A DNA stretch of 39,539 nt from a virus: positions 1 through 39,539 of the IMG/VR virus record IMGVR_UViG_3300009320_000054, one strand, 5' to 3'. The notes under the pieces are model-generated. The model had not been told where the DNA came from. It searched no databases and saw only the letters and a program-made list of their open reading frames with translations. Made by a program: the position numbers and the translations under genes. Of the stretch, positions 2,248 through 38,551 are shown piece after piece; position 1 is the stretch's first letter, and every line of letters begins with the position of its first letter.

Positions 2248-3105
2248 TTAAAATAATTCTTGTTGATTTCTTTTGTTATAAATTTCCTTCCAATTAAACT
2301 GAACTTCTGTTAACCCCCTTTTGTTGTCAGTATCTAATTTTATTTTGTCGCCCCATTTTTTAATCAAATATTCCGCTGCTTTTTTGCTTTTTTCTTCGTT
2401 CCGATAAAACTGACAACCCCCATCACTACCGCCTGAACCCCCATCGCAAGGAACATATGTATATTTATAACAACAACCATTCATAAATCCTTTTTTTAAT
2501 ATTTGTGCTGTTATGTCATAATCTTCAAACAACAACAAGTTAGAATCATAATTTACTCCATACTCTTTACAAAAAAACGGGCTAATCATATTAAGACACC
2601 AAACCCTGGTATTATATTTCCAATCTCCTTTTTCTTTTCCCCAAAGCCAATTACTTGGTGGTAACTTTTTGTCCCTGCCATATTCAACCAATTCTTTTAA
2701 CATTCCGTCTGTTTGTCCCACGTCAATTTTGACTATCTTTGGGTGTCCGCCTTCTGTTTGCCCTTCACGAACCCTAAATTCTTTAATATCATCGTCCAAC
2801 ATTGCAATATACTCATAATCAGAAAAATTGTCTAATACCCAATTTCTTGTGTTCCCTATTCCTTTGTCATTATTTTTTGTTGGCATACTAACAACATTAC
2901 ATGATTTTCCATAAACATTAAAATATTCTTTAAATTCTTGTTGTTCAACCACTAATGTTATTTCTTGTTTTTTTGAAAACAATTCTGGCGTAGTGATTTT
3001 TCCTGCACGACCTTTTGTGGGTATAACTATTTGCATATTATTTTTTACAATGAATTTCTGTTCTTTTATGACATATTCATCAAGTGTATTTTTTCTGGTT
3101 TTCAT
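2248..3105 (-). CDS. TET-associated (J-base-type) DNA glycosyltransferase
   Basis: Predicted GT-A glycosyltransferase of the TAGT/JGT family, whose members attach sugars to hydroxylated bases in phage or kinetoplastid DNA. Visible motifs, counting from the ATG at 3105: IPTKGR (about 29-33), the metal- and sugar-nucleotide-binding LDDD (103-106), NTRVW (165-169), FEDYD (193-197) and GGCQFYR (229-235), then a C-terminal TEVQFNW segment. All are in the order usual for the family. The protein is 285 aa, normal for it. The ATG follows the radical SAM stop as TAATATG. A TTG 12 bases upstream is a less likely start. The acceptor base and the sugar cannot be read from sequence, and the usual partner, a TET/JBP dioxygenase or base hydroxymethylase, is not in the window. 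Confidence 0.8.
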   Translation of the reverse strand: MKTRKNTLDEYVIKEQKFIVKNNMQIVIPTKGRAGKITTPELFSKKQEITLVVEQQEFKEYFNVYGKSCNVVSMPTKNNDKGIGNTRNWVLDNFSDYEYIAMLDDDIKEFRVREGQTEGGHPKIVKIDVGQTDGMLKELVEYGRDKKLPPSNWLWGKEKGDWKYNTRVWCLNMISPFFCKEYGVNYDSNLLLFEDYDITAQILKKGFMNGCCYKYTYVPCDGGSGGSDGGCQFYRNEEKSKKAAEYLIKKWGDKIKLDTDNKRGLTEVQFNWKEIYNKRNQQELF

Positions 3106-3106
3106 A

Positions 3107-4378
3107 TTATTTGTCAATAAATTTATAAATTATGTTATTGTTTTCATCTAACCTGTCAGGCTTCATTACACCCTCAAAATATTTATATGGACTGTGTGCA
3201 CTTTTGGGATCGTTCCAAGCGTTTCTCATGTAATCATATAATGATTGATTTGCTATTTTTGCTTTTCTCATAATTGAACCAGTGTTAAATCCTGGTGCTC
3301 TTAAAATGTTTATTTTTTTTAACCAATCACCATGTTGTGCTATGTCATCCCAACTTACTTCACCTTTTTCTTTACAAATGTTTATCGCATTTGTAAATTG
3401 ACACAAACTATAATTACTTAAACTGGGCATATTTATGCTTTTTTGTGGTAACCCGCAACAACTACCAGAACAACCTTTTTCTTTGTGGTGAGCGTCACTC
3501 ACGTGAAAATTAATGCCGTGTTTGTCGCACAATTGTTGCATGTTATCAATGTACGGTTTTTTAATATTGTAGTTCAACCTTAAATAACCTATGCCCGTGC
3601 TAACATTTTCGTAAAAATCTAATATATCAAACCCTAATGCTTTACTCATTGTTTCATACTTATCTTTAGCTACATTTTTACTTCTAATTTCTAAACAAAA
3701 AAATTCTGTGCTCAACGCTTTAACCCCTGCTGCATTAGCTTGCCCCAATAAATCGTCAACAGTTTTGTCAGACAATCCTATAATGAATGGACGCAACCTC
3801 AAAATAGTCCAAATACCCATATCAGATAATTTCTTTAAAACTTCCATTCTTCGTTGAGGGCTGGGGCAACCAGCTTCAAAAATTTTCGCCATTTTCTCAT
3901 CCCAAGTAATAATACTCGCTTTATAACTCCAATATTCTCCCATACCCTCAAATAAATCTAAATATTTTTTATCCCTCAACAACAAATCACTTTTGCTGCT
4001 AAAACATATTGGATATTTAATTTCTTTTAAAAATTTCAAAATTTCATACCCTAAACCATCTTGCTCTTCTATTGGGCACAAAGGGTCTGATAAACCACCC
4101 CATTGTAAAGTGATTTTTTGTTTTATTAATTCTTGAAACGGGTTTTTGTGTTCGGGATCAAACAATTTTTTAAATCTTTCTAACGACACAGCTTTATATT
4201 GTTTTTTTAAATAAGCATCTTTACCTGCACCGATAGCCCTTTGAAAAGTTGAAAAACAATACATGCAATTATAACCACAATTAGAAAATTGGTCAAAAGT
4301 CATGGGCATACTACAATCTAATACTTCTCCACTTATCCTTGGGCTAGCATAAAAACCTTTTATCTTATCAAATTTCAT
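3107..4378 (-). CDS. Radical SAM enzyme of the spore-photoproduct-lyase-like family
   Basis: A 423-aa radical SAM enzyme. The [4Fe-4S]-binding CxxxCxxC lies at C34, C38 and C41 (CGYNCMYC). The rest matches SPL-like proteins (COG1533): GGLSDPLCPIEE, FSSKSDLLL, ITTWDE-type strand (IITWDEKMAKIF), GCPSPQRRMEVLKKL, and LRPFIIGLSD. Near residue 300 there is a further cysteine-rich stretch (HHKEKGCSGSCCG) that could bind a second cluster or zinc. SPL itself repairs a thymine dimer by radical chemistry on the thymine methyl group. Here the enzyme is sandwiched between a ParB-like gene (11-base overlap) and a DNA glycosyltransferase (one-base gap), which suggests DNA-base modification rather than spore repair. 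That is inference. Confidence 0.8.
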   Translation of the reverse strand: MKFDKIKGFYASPRISGEVLDCSMPMTFDQFSNCGYNCMYCFSTFQRAIGAGKDAYLKKQYKAVSLERFKKLFDPEHKNPFQELIKQKITLQWGGLSDPLCPIEEQDGLGYEILKFLKEIKYPICFSSKSDLLLRDKKYLDLFEGMGEYWSYKASIITWDEKMAKIFEAGCPSPQRRMEVLKKLSDMGIWTILRLRPFIIGLSDKTVDDLLGQANAAGVKALSTEFFCLEIRSKNVAKDKYETMSKALGFDILDFYENVSTGIGYLRLNYNIKKPYIDNMQQLCDKHGINFHVSDAHHKEKGCSGSCCGLPQKSINMPSLSNYSLCQFTNAINICKEKGEVSWDDIAQHGDWLKKINILRAPGFNTGSIMRKAKIANQSLYDYMRNAWNDPKSAHSPYKYFEGVMKPDRLDENNNIIYKFIDK

Positions 4379-5117
4379 AACCTTGTTTTTTTAATATTTC
4401 TAACAATAAATCAGTGTTAAAATCAACTTTCTTGCTAGTGGCAAAAATGTCTTTAACTTTCTGGTATTGTTTGTCGTCATCAAACCAAAAAGTCAACACT
4501 TGCCTAACACCAGAAATACAACCCTGTATGTCAACTTCATCCAATTTTAAAGATTCTCTGTTATATTCAGCCATTAATAAAAACTGCGTTATTGTTTCGT
4601 CCTTCAATCCTAATTCCAACAAATCATTTTTCAATTGTTTTAGTTTTAATTCTTTTTCAGTGTAATCAATTTCAGCGTGAAAATCAGATAATGTTTTTTT
4701 GTCCCCTATCTCCATTTTGTAATCATCAAACAAGCTTTCCTGCCCTGCCAAAGGTTTAATTAACTCTAATATTTTTTCTCTTTTATATTTGCCCACTGCA
4801 TCATTGTCAGATAAAGCGTATTTTAACCTATCTGCATCATTCCACGCTTCCACGACGCTGACCCAAACCCATAAATTATTTTCCCTTTCTTCCGATTGAG
4901 AACTTTTGTATAATTTTTGTAACACCTTAAAGCGTTGATTTCCGCCCAAAACTTCACCGTCAGGCGTGACCTCTAATGGCTTATAAAGCCCTAACTCAAC
5001 AATTTGTTTTTCTAATCTGCCCAAATCTTTGTCTTCAATAACACGAGGGTTTTTTGGCCACAACCGCATAGCTGTAATTCTTGCTAATGTTTTGCCGTCT
5101 TCAATTTTTGTTTGCAT
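4368..5117 (-). CDS. ParB-like domain protein, 249 aa
   Basis: The N-terminal domain (about residues 12-95) is ParB/Srx-like: ITAMRLWPKNPRVIEDKDL, then LEKQIVELGLYKPLEV, VLGGNQRFKVL. The GGNQR motif matches the GxxR nucleotide-binding signature of ParB and related phage nucleases and ATPases. The remaining 150 residues are helical and acidic with no recognised domain. Phage ParB-like proteins of this kind are often found with DNA-modification genes, where they may guide an enzyme to DNA or use NTPs. The gene overlaps the radical SAM gene by 11 bases and starts 3 bases after the previous stop, so all three are co-translated. Not a plasmid partition protein: no ParA and no parS seen. Confidence 0.75.
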   Translation of the reverse strand: MQTKIEDGKTLARITAMRLWPKNPRVIEDKDLGRLEKQIVELGLYKPLEVTPDGEVLGGNQRFKVLQKLYKSSQSEERENNLWVWVSVVEAWNDADRLKYALSDNDAVGKYKREKILELIKPLAGQESLFDDYKMEIGDKKTLSDFHAEIDYTEKELKLKQLKNDLLELGLKDETITQFLLMAEYNRESLKLDEVDIQGCISGVRQVLTFWFDDDKQYQKVKDIFATSKKVDFNTDLLLEILKKQGYEI

Positions 5118-5120
5118 ACT

Positions 5121-5522
5121 TTAATTATATAATTGTTTAAATTTTAATTGTAATCCTTCTAACAACACTGCGCTATTCTTAGCGTTTTTTCCTTGTTTTT
5201 TTACATAATTGCCCAGCCCTTTGATTATTCCTTTCATAGCTTTTTCCTTATTCATGACATAATCTTTGACACCATAATATTGTTCTTCATAAGCATTGTA
5301 AGTTGGTGCTGGCAACTTTTCTGGATGCCTGTCGTAATATTCTTTCTTTGTTAAAATGTCCCCGAATCTGTGTGTAGAATAAATGCTGCCTTTAATGTTT
5401 ATAAACCTCTGTTTGATGTTCTGTTTAATAAAATCTTTTGTCTTCTGGTCAATCTGCATTGTGGTGTTGTCGGTAAAAACTAAGATGAACTTTTTTTCAA
5501 ATTTTTGTAATTGGGTGGTCAT
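5121..5522 (-). CDS. Hypothetical early protein, 133 aa
   Basis: No family is recognised. The first third looks beta-stranded (KFILVFTDNTTMQIDQKTKDFI), a central segment FINIKGSIYSTHRFGDILTK resembles a small DNA- or nucleotide-binding strand-loop, and the C-terminus is a lysine-rich helix. The ATG overlaps the stop of the replication gene as ATGA, and it sits directly before the ParB-like gene. Position suggests a helper of replication or of the modification set. Confidence 0.65.
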   Translation of the reverse strand: MTTQLQKFEKKFILVFTDNTTMQIDQKTKDFIKQNIKQRFINIKGSIYSTHRFGDILTKKEYYDRHPEKLPAPTYNAYEEQYYGVKDYVMNKEKAMKGIIKGLGNYVKKQGKNAKNSAVLLEGLQLKFKQLYN

Positions 5523-6232
5523 ATAGTTGGTATAGTGCTATCTTCTTTGTCAAAATAAATTTTTAATTCAGCAATCTTGTTTTTCATTTGCAATGGTGTG
5601 GTGACAACTGGCGCATACTTCTCTCCCTGCACGGCAATAACTTTTGTTGCCATGGCGACAACATTCTTAAACCCAAACTTGCCTGACAACCATTGAACAG
5701 CTCCCCTCTGGGTTTTGTTCCCATAATTAATGGAAGGGTTTATCTGATAAAATAAATCAAAAATTTTGTTGGTGTCGCAATCTTCAGGTTGCTTCTTCTC
5801 TTTATTTTCTTTTATTTTACTTTGTTTTACTTTACTTTGTTTTAAAGCATTGCGTTCGGATAGCGTTCGCAATGCGTTCGCATTGCTGTTATTCATCTTA
5901 TTCCAGCGTATATTTGCGCTTTGTCTTGCCTTCTCGCTTTTGCCTTTTCGTTTCCTTAATCGTGCTAGCACAGATTTACTACATATCTTTTTTGATGCTA
6001 TCTTAAATAATTTGTAGTCATTTATTATGCGTTTTATGCGTTCGCATTTCGTTCGCAAGTCAAATGCAATACAGTCATAATCTTCTTCCAAGAACCCGTC
6101 AGCTTCATAAAGTTTTTCTATAATCGCCCAATAAATACCATACCCCCCCCACCCCTCATTCTTGACTAGCTTTAATATCTTTTCGTTATTCCTGGCATTA
6201 TAGTCGTGTGAAAAATAATAAGTTTCTTTCAT
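5519..6232 (-). CDS. Lin1244/DUF4373-type replication protein
   Basis: Starts MKETYYFSHDYNARNNEKILKL, the hallmark of the DUF4373 (Lin1244/Lin1753-like) N-terminal domain found in phage replication-initiation proteins, and continues GGYGIYWAIIEKLYE. The middle (about residues 90-150) is a highly basic linker rich in K, R, S and N; the C-terminus (NYGNKTQRGAVQWLSGKFG) is a small helical domain of the kind seen at the end of phage replication proteins. I place the start at ATG 6232. The frame is open further upstream to a TTG at 6304, but that stretch is the RNA leader, and the domain begins exactly at 6232. First gene of the early operon; expression probably depends on the leader structure at 6239-6348. 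Confidence 0.75.
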   Translation of the reverse strand: MKETYYFSHDYNARNNEKILKLVKNEGWGGYGIYWAIIEKLYEADGFLEEDYDCIAFDLRTKCERIKRIINDYKLFKIASKKICSKSVLARLRKRKGKSEKARQSANIRWNKMNNSNANALRTLSERNALKQSKVKQSKIKENKEKKQPEDCDTNKIFDLFYQINPSINYGNKTQRGAVQWLSGKFGFKNVVAMATKVIAVQGEKYAPVVTTPLQMKNKIAELKIYFDKEDSTIPTI

Positions 6233-6238
6233 ATCTTT

Positions 6239-6348
6239 ATAAAAAACAAAACTCTCTTGCCTGCCTAACAAGTATACATCGTCAAATGCGCACTTGGTTT
6301 GCAAGCAAGAGAGTTCTGGCTTTTATTGACGATGTATTCATTGCGCAT
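6239..6348 (-). promoter_or_regulatory. Leader RNA with interlocking inverted repeats (attenuator or pseudoknot)
   Basis: In transcript order the leader has arm A (6337-6326, ATACATCGTCAA), arm B (6315-6305, AACTCTCTTGC), arm A' (6285-6274) and arm B' (6260-6250). A pairs with A' over 12 perfect base pairs and B with B' over 11. The order A-B-A'-B' means the helices either form an H-type pseudoknot or exclude each other. B' runs directly into a U-rich tract (6249-6241, TTGTTTTTT), so B:B' looks like an intrinsic terminator ending about 10 bases before the replication gene ATG. A 19-codon ORF covers A, B and part of A'. A third palindromic pair, ATGCGCA/TGCGCAT (6286-6292 and 6342-6348), adds further pairing options. 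Structure read directly; regulatory function inferred. Confidence 0.65.
6282..6341 (-). CDS. Leader peptide ORF, 19 codons
   Basis: ATG 6341-6339 to TGA 6284-6282, encoding MNTSSIKARTLLLANQVRI. It starts about 20 bases after the predicted transcription start and has no clear Shine-Dalgarno, so it could be read almost leaderless. Its codons contain arms A and B of the interlocking repeats and its stop lies inside A'. A ribosome on this ORF would therefore decide which helix forms, as in known attenuation leaders. There is no obvious run of one amino acid. Real translation is unproven. Confidence 0.4.
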   Translation of the reverse strand: MNTSSIKARTLLLANQVRI

Positions 6349-6367
6349 ATTTTTATTTTATAACTTA

Positions 6368-6396
6368 ATTATAGCATACTTTTTTAAAAAACACAA
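6368..6396 (-). promoter_or_regulatory. Promoter P1 for the early (replication/modification) operon
   Basis: On the minus strand TTGTGT (6396-6391) is followed by exactly 17 bases and TATAAT (6373-6368), a near-consensus sigma70/sigmaA promoter. Transcription should start near 6361, giving a 130-base leader before the replication gene. The same two hexamers with the same spacing recur at 6679-6707 and 38501-38529, which makes chance unlikely. Confidence 0.75.
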
Positions 6397-6404
6397 ATAG
6401 GTTC

Positions 6405-6413
6405 TGTGGATAA
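6405..6413 (-). promoter_or_regulatory. DnaA-box-like sequence just upstream of P1
   Basis: The minus strand reads TTATCCACA, a perfect match to the bacterial DnaA box TTATNCACA, ending 8 bases before the -35 hexamer of P1. A one-mismatch copy sits at the same place before P2. It may be a DnaA or phage-activator site, or part of a replication origin in this AT-rich gap. Confidence 0.5.
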
Positions 6414-6416
6414 CTC

Positions 6417-6672
6417 AGACAACTCTAAGGGGGAATGAACAATGTTGTCTGTTAAAGACAACCTTCCTGCCAAAAGCCAAGGCGGGTAGCCAATTGTATC
6501 GCTATCTGGGTTAGCCCGTAGCTAACTATTCTTCCCCTATATACAATAGACGCTATCTGACCAACACTTCATCGCTGTGATCTGCTTAGAGCTGAAGCCC
6601 AATAAATTGACCCACTTGGGCAAGCTCCAGCCGCTTAAAAAATTGCCGAAATAAATTCAGCTCTAAACAGAC
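6417..6672 (-). ncRNA. Candidate structured non-coding RNA, about 250 nt
   Basis: The minus-strand transcript from P2 should begin near 6672 and immediately enters a 15-base-pair stem (6670-6656 with 6596-6582, one G-U pair) around a 59-base internal region. Further hairpins follow: arms 6541-6547 and 6493-6499 (ATTGTAT/ATACAAT) enclosing GTTAGC/GCTAAC (6526-6521 with 6515-6510), then GTTGTCT/AGACAAC (6462-6456 with 6450-6444), with a second possible partner at 6423-6417. A nonamer CGCTATCTG is repeated at 6500-6508 and 6551-6559. No ORF of significance is present and the stretch is more GC-rich than its surroundings. It does not match tRNA, tmRNA, RNase P or 6S RNA features I know. Family unknown. 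Confidence 0.55.
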
Positions 6673-6678
6673 TCTTTA

Positions 6679-6707
6679 ATTATAAAATGTATTCAGATAA
6701 AACACAA
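6679..6707 (-). promoter_or_regulatory. Promoter P2 for the structured RNA
   Basis: Minus strand TTGTGT (6707-6702), 17 bases, TATAAT (6684-6679). The predicted start near 6672 falls one or two bases before the 15-base-pair stem of the RNA candidate, which is how a promoter for a structured RNA would be placed. Same architecture as P1 and P3. Confidence 0.7.
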
Positions 6708-6714
6708 ATTATTC

Positions 6715-18297: not shown

Positions 18298-19286
18298 ACG
18301 TTTTCCTTTCTTAAGTTAATTTTAGGGAATGAATCCCACACTTCTTTTTTAAGAGCCATTGTTTCATTACTATTGCGCATTAAATATGTTGCTAAAAGTT
18401 TGGCTAAATCACCTACCATAATCTTATTATTAAGCACTAATCCGAAAGCTCCACTTTCTTCTACCTCCTGAACTAATGTGTTATCAGGTATTGTTACAAT
18501 TGGCATAGATTTAATTTCTTCTATATTATATTTTAATACTGCCCAAAATTTATAATTTAATGCTAACTTTTTTTTGTCTTTAGTATAATGATCATAAATA
18601 TAGAAATAATCATCTACTTTATAAATCATGAAAGCATGATTTGCTTGTTTTTCTGTTCTCTGATAAACATTTTTTTTGGGTTTATCCCAAGCATATCCAC
18701 ACACTTGTAATGGACTATAAAGTAATGCTTCCCTGATTACTTTTTCTGTTGGGATAACCCATTCATAATTTATCTTAAACCTATCATTCCATTCGTTTGC
18801 CTTTTCAGCTAAAGCTTTTTTCTTTAATGGAGATACACTAATATAATCTTTAAATTTTGTAACCTCTTCTTTATCCCACCCAAACTCTGTTTCTGACACT
18901 AACCCATATTTATGTGCTGCTTTAACTGGATTAACCATTAAATTTCCTTTATTTGTTGTTCCAGACGAAATAGCCGACCATCTATCGCTACAATCATATT
19001 TTCCTTTATTAAAAATTGAACTTTCTTTTAACCATTTCATGTTCTTTTTGGATATTTCATTATTCATCTGCATACATCCCAACAATGTTTCAACAGTATT
19101 TAAAAATGAATAATTAGTGCAACACATACTATCAAAATATTTGCTGCGCTGTATTTCCAAAAATGGCAAATATTCTGTCCAATTCCTGTCAGGTTCACGC
19201 ACTCCTGACATAATTCCTGTAACATCACCAAATCTCCAATCTTTTATATTTACTTTGTCATCAAGAATCAAACCATGATTTTGCAT
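18294..19286 (-). CDS. Papain-like cysteine peptidase, probable lysis or virion protease, 330 aa
   Basis: Features of the papain (C1A) fold are visible: near residues 50-60 the segment FDSMCCTNYSF corresponds to the catalytic-cysteine helix (C55 or C56); QANHAFMIYKV near 217 supplies the histidine; YFYIYDHYTK near 232 matches the Asn/Asp position. A conserved VCGYAW strand precedes the histidine. It stands between a cysteine-rich protein, two holin-like genes and the tail block. I infer a peptidase acting on cell wall peptide or on host protein at the end of infection; no amidase or lysozyme is found nearby. It might instead cleave virion proteins. A 9-bp hairpin lies just upstream. Confidence 0.6.
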   Translation of the reverse strand: MQNHGLILDDKVNIKDWRFGDVTGIMSGVREPDRNWTEYLPFLEIQRSKYFDSMCCTNYSFLNTVETLLGCMQMNNEISKKNMKWLKESSIFNKGKYDCSDRWSAISSGTTNKGNLMVNPVKAAHKYGLVSETEFGWDKEEVTKFKDYISVSPLKKKALAEKANEWNDRFKINYEWVIPTEKVIREALLYSPLQVCGYAWDKPKKNVYQRTEKQANHAFMIYKVDDYFYIYDHYTKDKKKLALNYKFWAVLKYNIEEIKSMPIVTIPDNTLVQEVEESGAFGLVLNNKIMVGDLAKLLATYLMRNSNETMALKKEVWDSFPKINLRKENV

Positions 19287-38476: not shown

Positions 38477-38500
38477 ACACCTCCTTGTTTAATTAACTTT

Positions 38501-38529
38501 ATTATAGCTTATTTTTAATAAAAACACAA
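38501..38529 (-). promoter_or_regulatory. Promoter P3 for the late (packaging and virion) operon
   Basis: Minus strand TTGTGT (38529-38524), 17 bases, TATAAT (38506-38501); expected start near 38494. Identical hexamers and spacing to P1 and P2. A DnaA-box-like TTATCCACA lies about 50 bases upstream but in the opposite orientation (38580-38588, inside the gene before). It directs the leader, terminator and terminase genes. Confidence 0.75.
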
Positions 38530-38551
38530 CCCATATTATTTTATTGTAAAT

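Follow-up and report, generated by a model that had tools for sequence, protein, structure and literature searches.

A probable transcription attenuator with interleaved helices in the leaders of phage replication initiator genes

We analyzed a 39.5-kb viral DNA record of IMG/VR over its whole length (the window), whose main genes lie on the minus strand, and found that a terminator is placed directly upstream of its replication-initiator gene (rep). Promoter, two interleaved helices, U tract and rep ATG follow each other in this order on one strand. Judging from the sequence, the leader is probably an intrinsic-terminator RNA transcription attenuator of the phage replication operon, with antitermination in cis by one helix (B/B′) and possibly feedback in trans. 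Because phages of two bacterial phyla that look unrelated share this design in different letters, the leader most likely serves as a switch governing whether the replication protein is made.

Results

Anatomy of the leader

The leader helices are located on the minus strand; a TATAAT promoter precedes them, and the rep ATG at 6232-6230 follows (Table 1). A sequence-only reading of this DNA had described two perfect, interleaved inverted repeats of 12 and 11 bp, one of them abutting a U-rich tract like a terminator, and a 19-codon open reading frame (ORF) that covers both 5′ arms and stops in a 3′ arm. All of these elements are present. The arms succeed each other on the minus strand as B-T5′-B′-T3′, and the B and T helices are therefore interleaved. 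The T helix comprises 11 bp, or 15 with an inner extension (TTGC/GCAGG, with one G-U pair), and it has an outer extension, AAAAG/UUUUU. We identified a third helix in addition to those of the earlier reading, C, which pairs 6348-6342 with 6292-6286 and is interleaved with B.

Table 1. Features of the rep leader and neighboring genes in the window
Feature	Sequence	Position (strand)	Remarks
Promoter	TTGTGT-17-TATAAT	6368..6396 (-)	extended TGC before -10; predicted start ~6361
C arm	ATGCGCA	6342..6348 (-)	includes an ATG; pairs with C′
19-codon leader ORF	MNTSSIKARTLLLANQVRI	6282..6341 (-)	spans both 5′ arms; TGA 6284-6282 within B′
B arm	ATACATCGTCAA	6337-6326 (-)	5′ arm of early helix; pairs with B′, 12 bp, perfect
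T5′ terminator arm	AACTCTCTTGCTTGC (core)	6301..6322 (-)	core at 6315-6301; A-tract outside
T5′ 11-bp arm	AACTCTCTTGC	6315-6305 (-)	pairs with GCAAGAGAGTT
5′ side of internal loop and apical stem	AAAC + CAAGT	6292..6300 (-)	same in L141; AAA in L161, L015, L147
C′ arm	TGCGCAT	6286..6292 (-)	apical loop
B′ arm	TTGACGATGTAT	6285-6274 (-)	in apical loop of terminator
3′ side of apical stem and internal loop	ACTTG + TTAG	6265..6273 (-)	same in L141 (ACTTGTTAG)
T3′ terminator arm	GCAGGCAAGAGAGTT	6250..6264 (-)	
T3′ 11-bp arm	GCAAGAGAGTT	6260-6250 (-)	partner of AACTCTCTTGC
U-rich tract	TTGTTTTTTAT	6239-6249 (-)	directly after T3′
Replication initiator gene		5519..6232 (-)	PF14297 Lin1244_N (2e-11), PHROG 2562 (7e-19)
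Downstream early genes, head-to-tail		2248..5522 (-)	unknown, ParB-like, radical-SAM, TAGT glycosyltransferase

The earlier judgment that chance is a very unlikely origin was borne out by dinucleotide shuffling. In 20,000 shuffles, no interleaved pair of perfect helices with 12 and 11 bp, or as few as 10 and 9 bp, arose; pairs with 9 and 8 bp were seen in three. Nowhere else does the window have a site this strong; the runner-up, near 18519-18626, has 9 and 8 bp. The minus-strand leader RNA folds at -44.5 kcal/mol (z = -7.2), a stability equaled by 0 of 200 shuffles. The plus-strand RNA reaches only -34.6 kcal/mol (z = -4.4), since several of the sense-strand pairs are G-U. This strand bias is as expected from selection on the structure of the minus-strand RNA.

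The predicted transcription start is upstream of all leader arms. A start downstream of 6274, which would have spoken against the sequence-only reading, is not hinted at by the sequence. The minus strand also carries a near-copy of the promoter (6676-6708) and another, similar promoter (38498-38530); with three such promoters in the record, the phage seems to use this type repeatedly. A box, TCCACAGAA-n-ATTTGTGTTTT, is duplicated as well (6402-6411/6388-6398 and 6712-6721/6699-6709), each copy upstream of TTGTGT-17-TATAAT. A perfect DnaA-box-like sequence, TTATCCACA, lies at 6405-6413, inside the first copy. On the plus strand, promoter-like sites at 6192 and 6326 score 9/12, and the region totals 27 such sites vs. 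18.3 (sd 5.0) expected; we saw no convincing antisense promoter at the rep leader.

Positions 6410-6700 form a noncoding segment of about 280 nt that is strongly structured on both strands (minus strand, -94.6 kcal/mol; z, -3.8). It has its own promoter, near-identical to that of the rep leader, and no match in Rfam; it possibly specifies a second phage RNA.

Among the genes downstream of rep, that of the TET-associated glycosyltransferase (TAGT) adjoins those of the radical-SAM and ParB-like proteins (2248-4378). This neighborhood suggests that the phage DNA is hypermodified, and the tight packing of the TAGT and radical-SAM genes downstream of the leader leads us to infer that the latter might also control DNA modification. 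The minus-strand genes of the window have hardly any Shine-Dalgarno sequences, and many of them start with TATG, often AATATG. No integrase was found in the record, and control of copy number or timing is thus as likely as immunity.

Compensatory changes in related leaders

The leader belongs to no Rfam family at gathering or relaxed thresholds. Membership in the bglG/LicT RAT family (RF03530), also a terminator/antiterminator leader, was rejected: the cmscan match at 6229-6351 (-) scored only 19.9 bits vs. a gathering threshold of 80 (E, 0.92). The rep region showed no DNA similarity to annotated phages. In viral contigs, the pattern AAACCAAGTG-gap-ACTTGTTAGG had no match, and none of the 26 matches to the shorter CAAACCAAG-gap-CTTGTTAGG was a leader.

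The first clear homologue, L141, was found in a groundwater MAG contig (genome G001, ~700 kb) whose phylum appears to be Patescibacteria, to judge by the comparably small size of its sampled genomes. Its promoter is TTGACA-17-TAGACT, and the internal-loop sequences are those of the window (GCAAACCAAGTG ... ACTTGTTAGGCAGG), while the arms differ in sequence. Yet no pair is broken in any of the three helices. Helix B has 4 double changes over 11 positions, helix T has 5 double changes and 1 single change over 15 positions, and helix C has 5 double changes over 7 positions. Two more leaders, L161 and L015, have the spacings of the window with other arm sequences and a single broken pair, in the T stem of L161. 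Both contain (N)AGG/UAGG at the site matching 6265..6273, and in a MAFFT alignment of the four leaders AAA and AGG(C/T)AG are invariant. In a further leader, L147, we rejected ACTGGCT as B, as it overlaps the predicted -10 box; ACTTCAC/GTGAAGT is the likelier choice.

We found no relative closer than L141. Searching viral contigs with the L141 Rep protein yielded none, and the six records with terminase relatives contained no rep domain. PF14297 was present in only two of 380 genomes of the L141 phylum; the second, L146, has related phage genes and no such leader. According to their gene tables, morran, tooticki, snork, elemo, EF62phi, a Porphyromonas phage, a Vibrio phage and plasmid pCT01 have a DUF4373-type rep gene that mostly follows close behind the upstream gene. 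In the portions of the literature available to us, mentions of DUF4373 concern the iron biology of Bacteroidetes.

Tail/loop complementarity is specific to rep leaders

Protein scans of IMG/VR and GTDB genomes provided many PF14297 loci. We screened 190 rep upstream regions, blind to the tail, for a stem of 9 bp or more plus a U tract at most 45 nt from the start codon; we already knew the first examples when we chose these cutoffs. This procedure yielded 22 nonredundant leaders; most of the 190 rep genes lack the leader altogether. An earlier hairpin/duplex test in which the hairpin borders were loose gave too much noise, and we used the stem-defined test instead.

We determined the best helix between the 75-nt tail and the loop of its own hairpin. 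Summed over the 22 leaders, the value was 461.5, as against 309 (sd 14) when tails were permuted among loops. It was never reached in 20,000 or 50,000 trials, with a maximum of 378 in the latter. The excess persists without the window, L141 and L015, the loci that prompted the idea, and also without nine loci. As a control, 731 other terminator-like hairpins of the same loci, a few of which are opposite strands of rep leaders, gave a mean of 14.9 vs. 14.7 after permutation; the mean for rep leaders is 21.0. Thus, the excess is specific to rep leaders and almost absent from other terminator-like hairpins. The sense strand was the more stable in all 22 hairpins by virtue of G-U pairs, an outcome favored by the fact that stems were picked on the sense strand with G-U allowed.

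The sequence-only reading had offered covariation of the arms in related phages as a check on its proposal of an attenuator. The compensated helices of L141 and the tail/loop complementarity of the 22 leaders now support that proposal.

The leaders vary in their details. L093 has CAGTCACACTATCG/CGATGGTGTGACTG interleaved with ACAAGGGGGC/GCCCCCTTGT-TTTTT; the tail/loop helix of L088 has 13 bp with one G-U pair, and that of L023, 8 bp, fills a 9-nt loop. Bacteroidota-type TAnnTTTG promoters are present in several members (L023, L029, L093 and L163), and sigma-70-like ones in others. In L023, L029, L176, L179 and L242, B is within a small 5′ hairpin, so that pairing would be loop to loop; these leaders mostly lack an ORF over T5′ as well, and mechanisms may therefore differ. 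L152, L167 and L101 have the hairpin, with an unconvincing B/B′. Tail/terminator-loop complementarity, ACCACACCAATG/CATTGGTGTGGT, was also noted at L164 (2735-2815) before a different early gene upstream of rep, hinting that the design extends beyond rep genes.

The leader ORF and alternative explanations

The 19-codon ORF of the sequence-only reading does exist, and such ORFs occur over the terminator arm more often than expected; a regulatory role of the peptide is putative. An ORF over T5′ is present in 12 of 17 leaders, vs. 5.5 (sd 1.8) expected, and one reaching through T3′ in 8, vs. 2.2 expected. These counts speak in favor of a ribosome-mediated leader-peptide attenuator, in which translation of the ORF over T5′ decides on readthrough and B/B′ merely gates initiation of the ORF. 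The ATG located right at the end of B in several leaders, and the related short peptides of the window (IKARTLLLANQV) and L141 (IKIRNHFLANQV), fit this explanation too. However, the likeness of the peptides falls on nucleotides conserved for RNA reasons, namely the A tract opposite the U tract and the AAACCAAG loop, so that peptide and RNA conservation are confounded. The conserved IKxR was rejected as a peptide signal, being probably a by-product of the pairing between these tracts. Moreover, L012, L023, L029, L176 and L242 have no such ORF, and that of the window ends before T3′ and lacks a Shine-Dalgarno sequence, as do most genes of this phage. We therefore regard control by the leader peptide as unlikely.

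A structured, pseudoknotted binding site for a protein, such as the initiator or a host factor, could instead control translation or termination. It would explain why the internal loop AAA(C).../(Y)UAGG is kept in the window, L141 and L015, and less strictly in L161 and L147, even though the arms vary. Members with Bacteroidota promoters show no apparent motif of this kind, yet their tail/loop pairing persists, and we deem such a site quite improbable. An element acting at the DNA level, with the inverted repeats in a replication origin or operator, would be in keeping with the adjoining rep gene and the DnaA-box-like sequence; but DnaA-like boxes are no commoner than chance, and strand asymmetry, G-U pairs, a U tract always on the rep-sense side and the lack of sequence conservation make it very hard to sustain. 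Terminators often precede genes, and the hairpin might simply end the upstream operon and be complementary to the tail by chance. We give this almost no credence, as the hairpin is separated from the upstream gene by the promoter, and both the permutations and the 731-hairpin control exclude chance.

Proposed mechanism

We thus favor an attenuator whose setting is determined by RNA pairing, probably in cis and perhaps in trans. In prefix folds of the nascent RNA, B/B′ had a probability above 0.9 in 12 of the 22 leaders, whereas in full-length folds the terminator had a probability of at least 0.79 in 18. Nested folding thus has B/B′ forming early and T at the end, which is how an attenuator would proceed. 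B′ is always in the terminator loop, never in the stem, and B/B′ consequently need not exclude T; antitermination alone would be expected to use the stem. The sequence-only reading had envisaged either a large pseudoknot or mutually exclusive helices. Because the B and T helices share no nucleotides, a pseudoknot, a kissing complex or intermolecular pairing may occur, and nested folding cannot represent pseudoknots. With B′ displayed in the loop and B in a free tail, the leader looks made for recognition, either as a pseudoknot in cis or in trans between a terminated and a nascent leader.

According to this model, transcription would start near 6361, and the C and B arms, made first, would pair with C′ and B′ as these emerge, before T3′ exists. 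Some 15 nt ahead of the rep ATG, T5′/T3′ and the U tract would then constitute an intrinsic terminator, at which we infer that transcription terminates in vivo. Readthrough into rep would be set by how long B/B′, as a putative antiterminator, or a ribosome on the leader ORF delays closure of the terminator. The terminated RNA would present B′ in its loop and B in a free 5′ tail and could thus pair with the next nascent leader. Such pairing in trans would block B/B′ in cis, or initiation of the leader ORF, and favor termination, providing negative feedback on rep similar to that exerted by P4 CI or in pT181. As B ends 0 to 3 nt before the leader-ORF ATG in L156, L163, L043, L088 and L093, pairing at B would in these cases prevent leader translation too, so that the terminator could close.

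Discussion

At the sequence level, the leader has the general attributes of an attenuator, i.e., an upstream promoter and a terminator hairpin with a U tract within the 5′ leader. Plasmid pT181 has a terminator immediately ahead of repC whose formation an antisense RNA promotes and whose 5′ arm pairs with a pre-emptor sequence; pIP501 is similar (PMC5703833). The phage leader resembles those of pT181 and pIP501 (Inc18) in that an intrinsic terminator just upstream of the rep start and a putatively competing upstream sequence would attenuate rep. However, the plasmid signal is a counter-transcribed RNA from the opposite strand, for which the phage leader has no convincing promoter, and B in the 5′ tail pairs with the loop rather than with the terminator 5′ arm.

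The CI RNA of phage P4, a processing product of the leader, brings about termination ahead of the replication genes through pairing with seqA and seqC (PMC4825925). Common to both systems are the leader RNA upstream of replication genes, premature termination, which is predicted here, and the complementarity of a small RNA of that transcript to an upstream leader sequence, which is found here. Nevertheless, CI is processed from the transcript and has two targets, whereas the phage leader has one hairpin with its own U tract directly before rep; the sequences are unrelated, and no integrase was found that would point to lysogeny. The c4 RNA of P1 and P7 has complementary sequences thought to be in RNA loops and aimed at the ribosome-binding region (PMC12197685). 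It shares loop-borne complementarity with the phage leaders but blocks translation of the ant mRNA instead of attenuating rep. The phage leaders thus follow the logic of pT181 and P4, but as they depart from the pT181 pairing with the terminator arm and their trans-acting RNA is only putative, they are members of neither family.

Little is known about early replication control in those phages of Bacteroidota and the candidate phyla radiation that have not been cultivated, and hardly any regulatory RNA is annotated in them. When many unrelated sequences maintain an architecture through compensatory changes, this is direct evidence that RNA structure is under selection, and it identifies the controlled gene. 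More tentatively, the leaders may represent widespread, undescribed self-antisense attenuators, an idea that we put forward with some reservation. A single leader would be both the terminator switch and, after termination, a repressor in trans, through complementarity of its loop and 5′ end and with no separate antisense gene, and its specificity would diversify freely between phages of Patescibacteria-like and Bacteroidota-like hosts. If so, each phage would be blind to the repressor of the others, which would amount to RNA-coded heteroimmunity or incompatibility. Action of the RNA in trans, if it occurs, would make the loop sequence a code for superinfection specificity that can be read from metagenomes.
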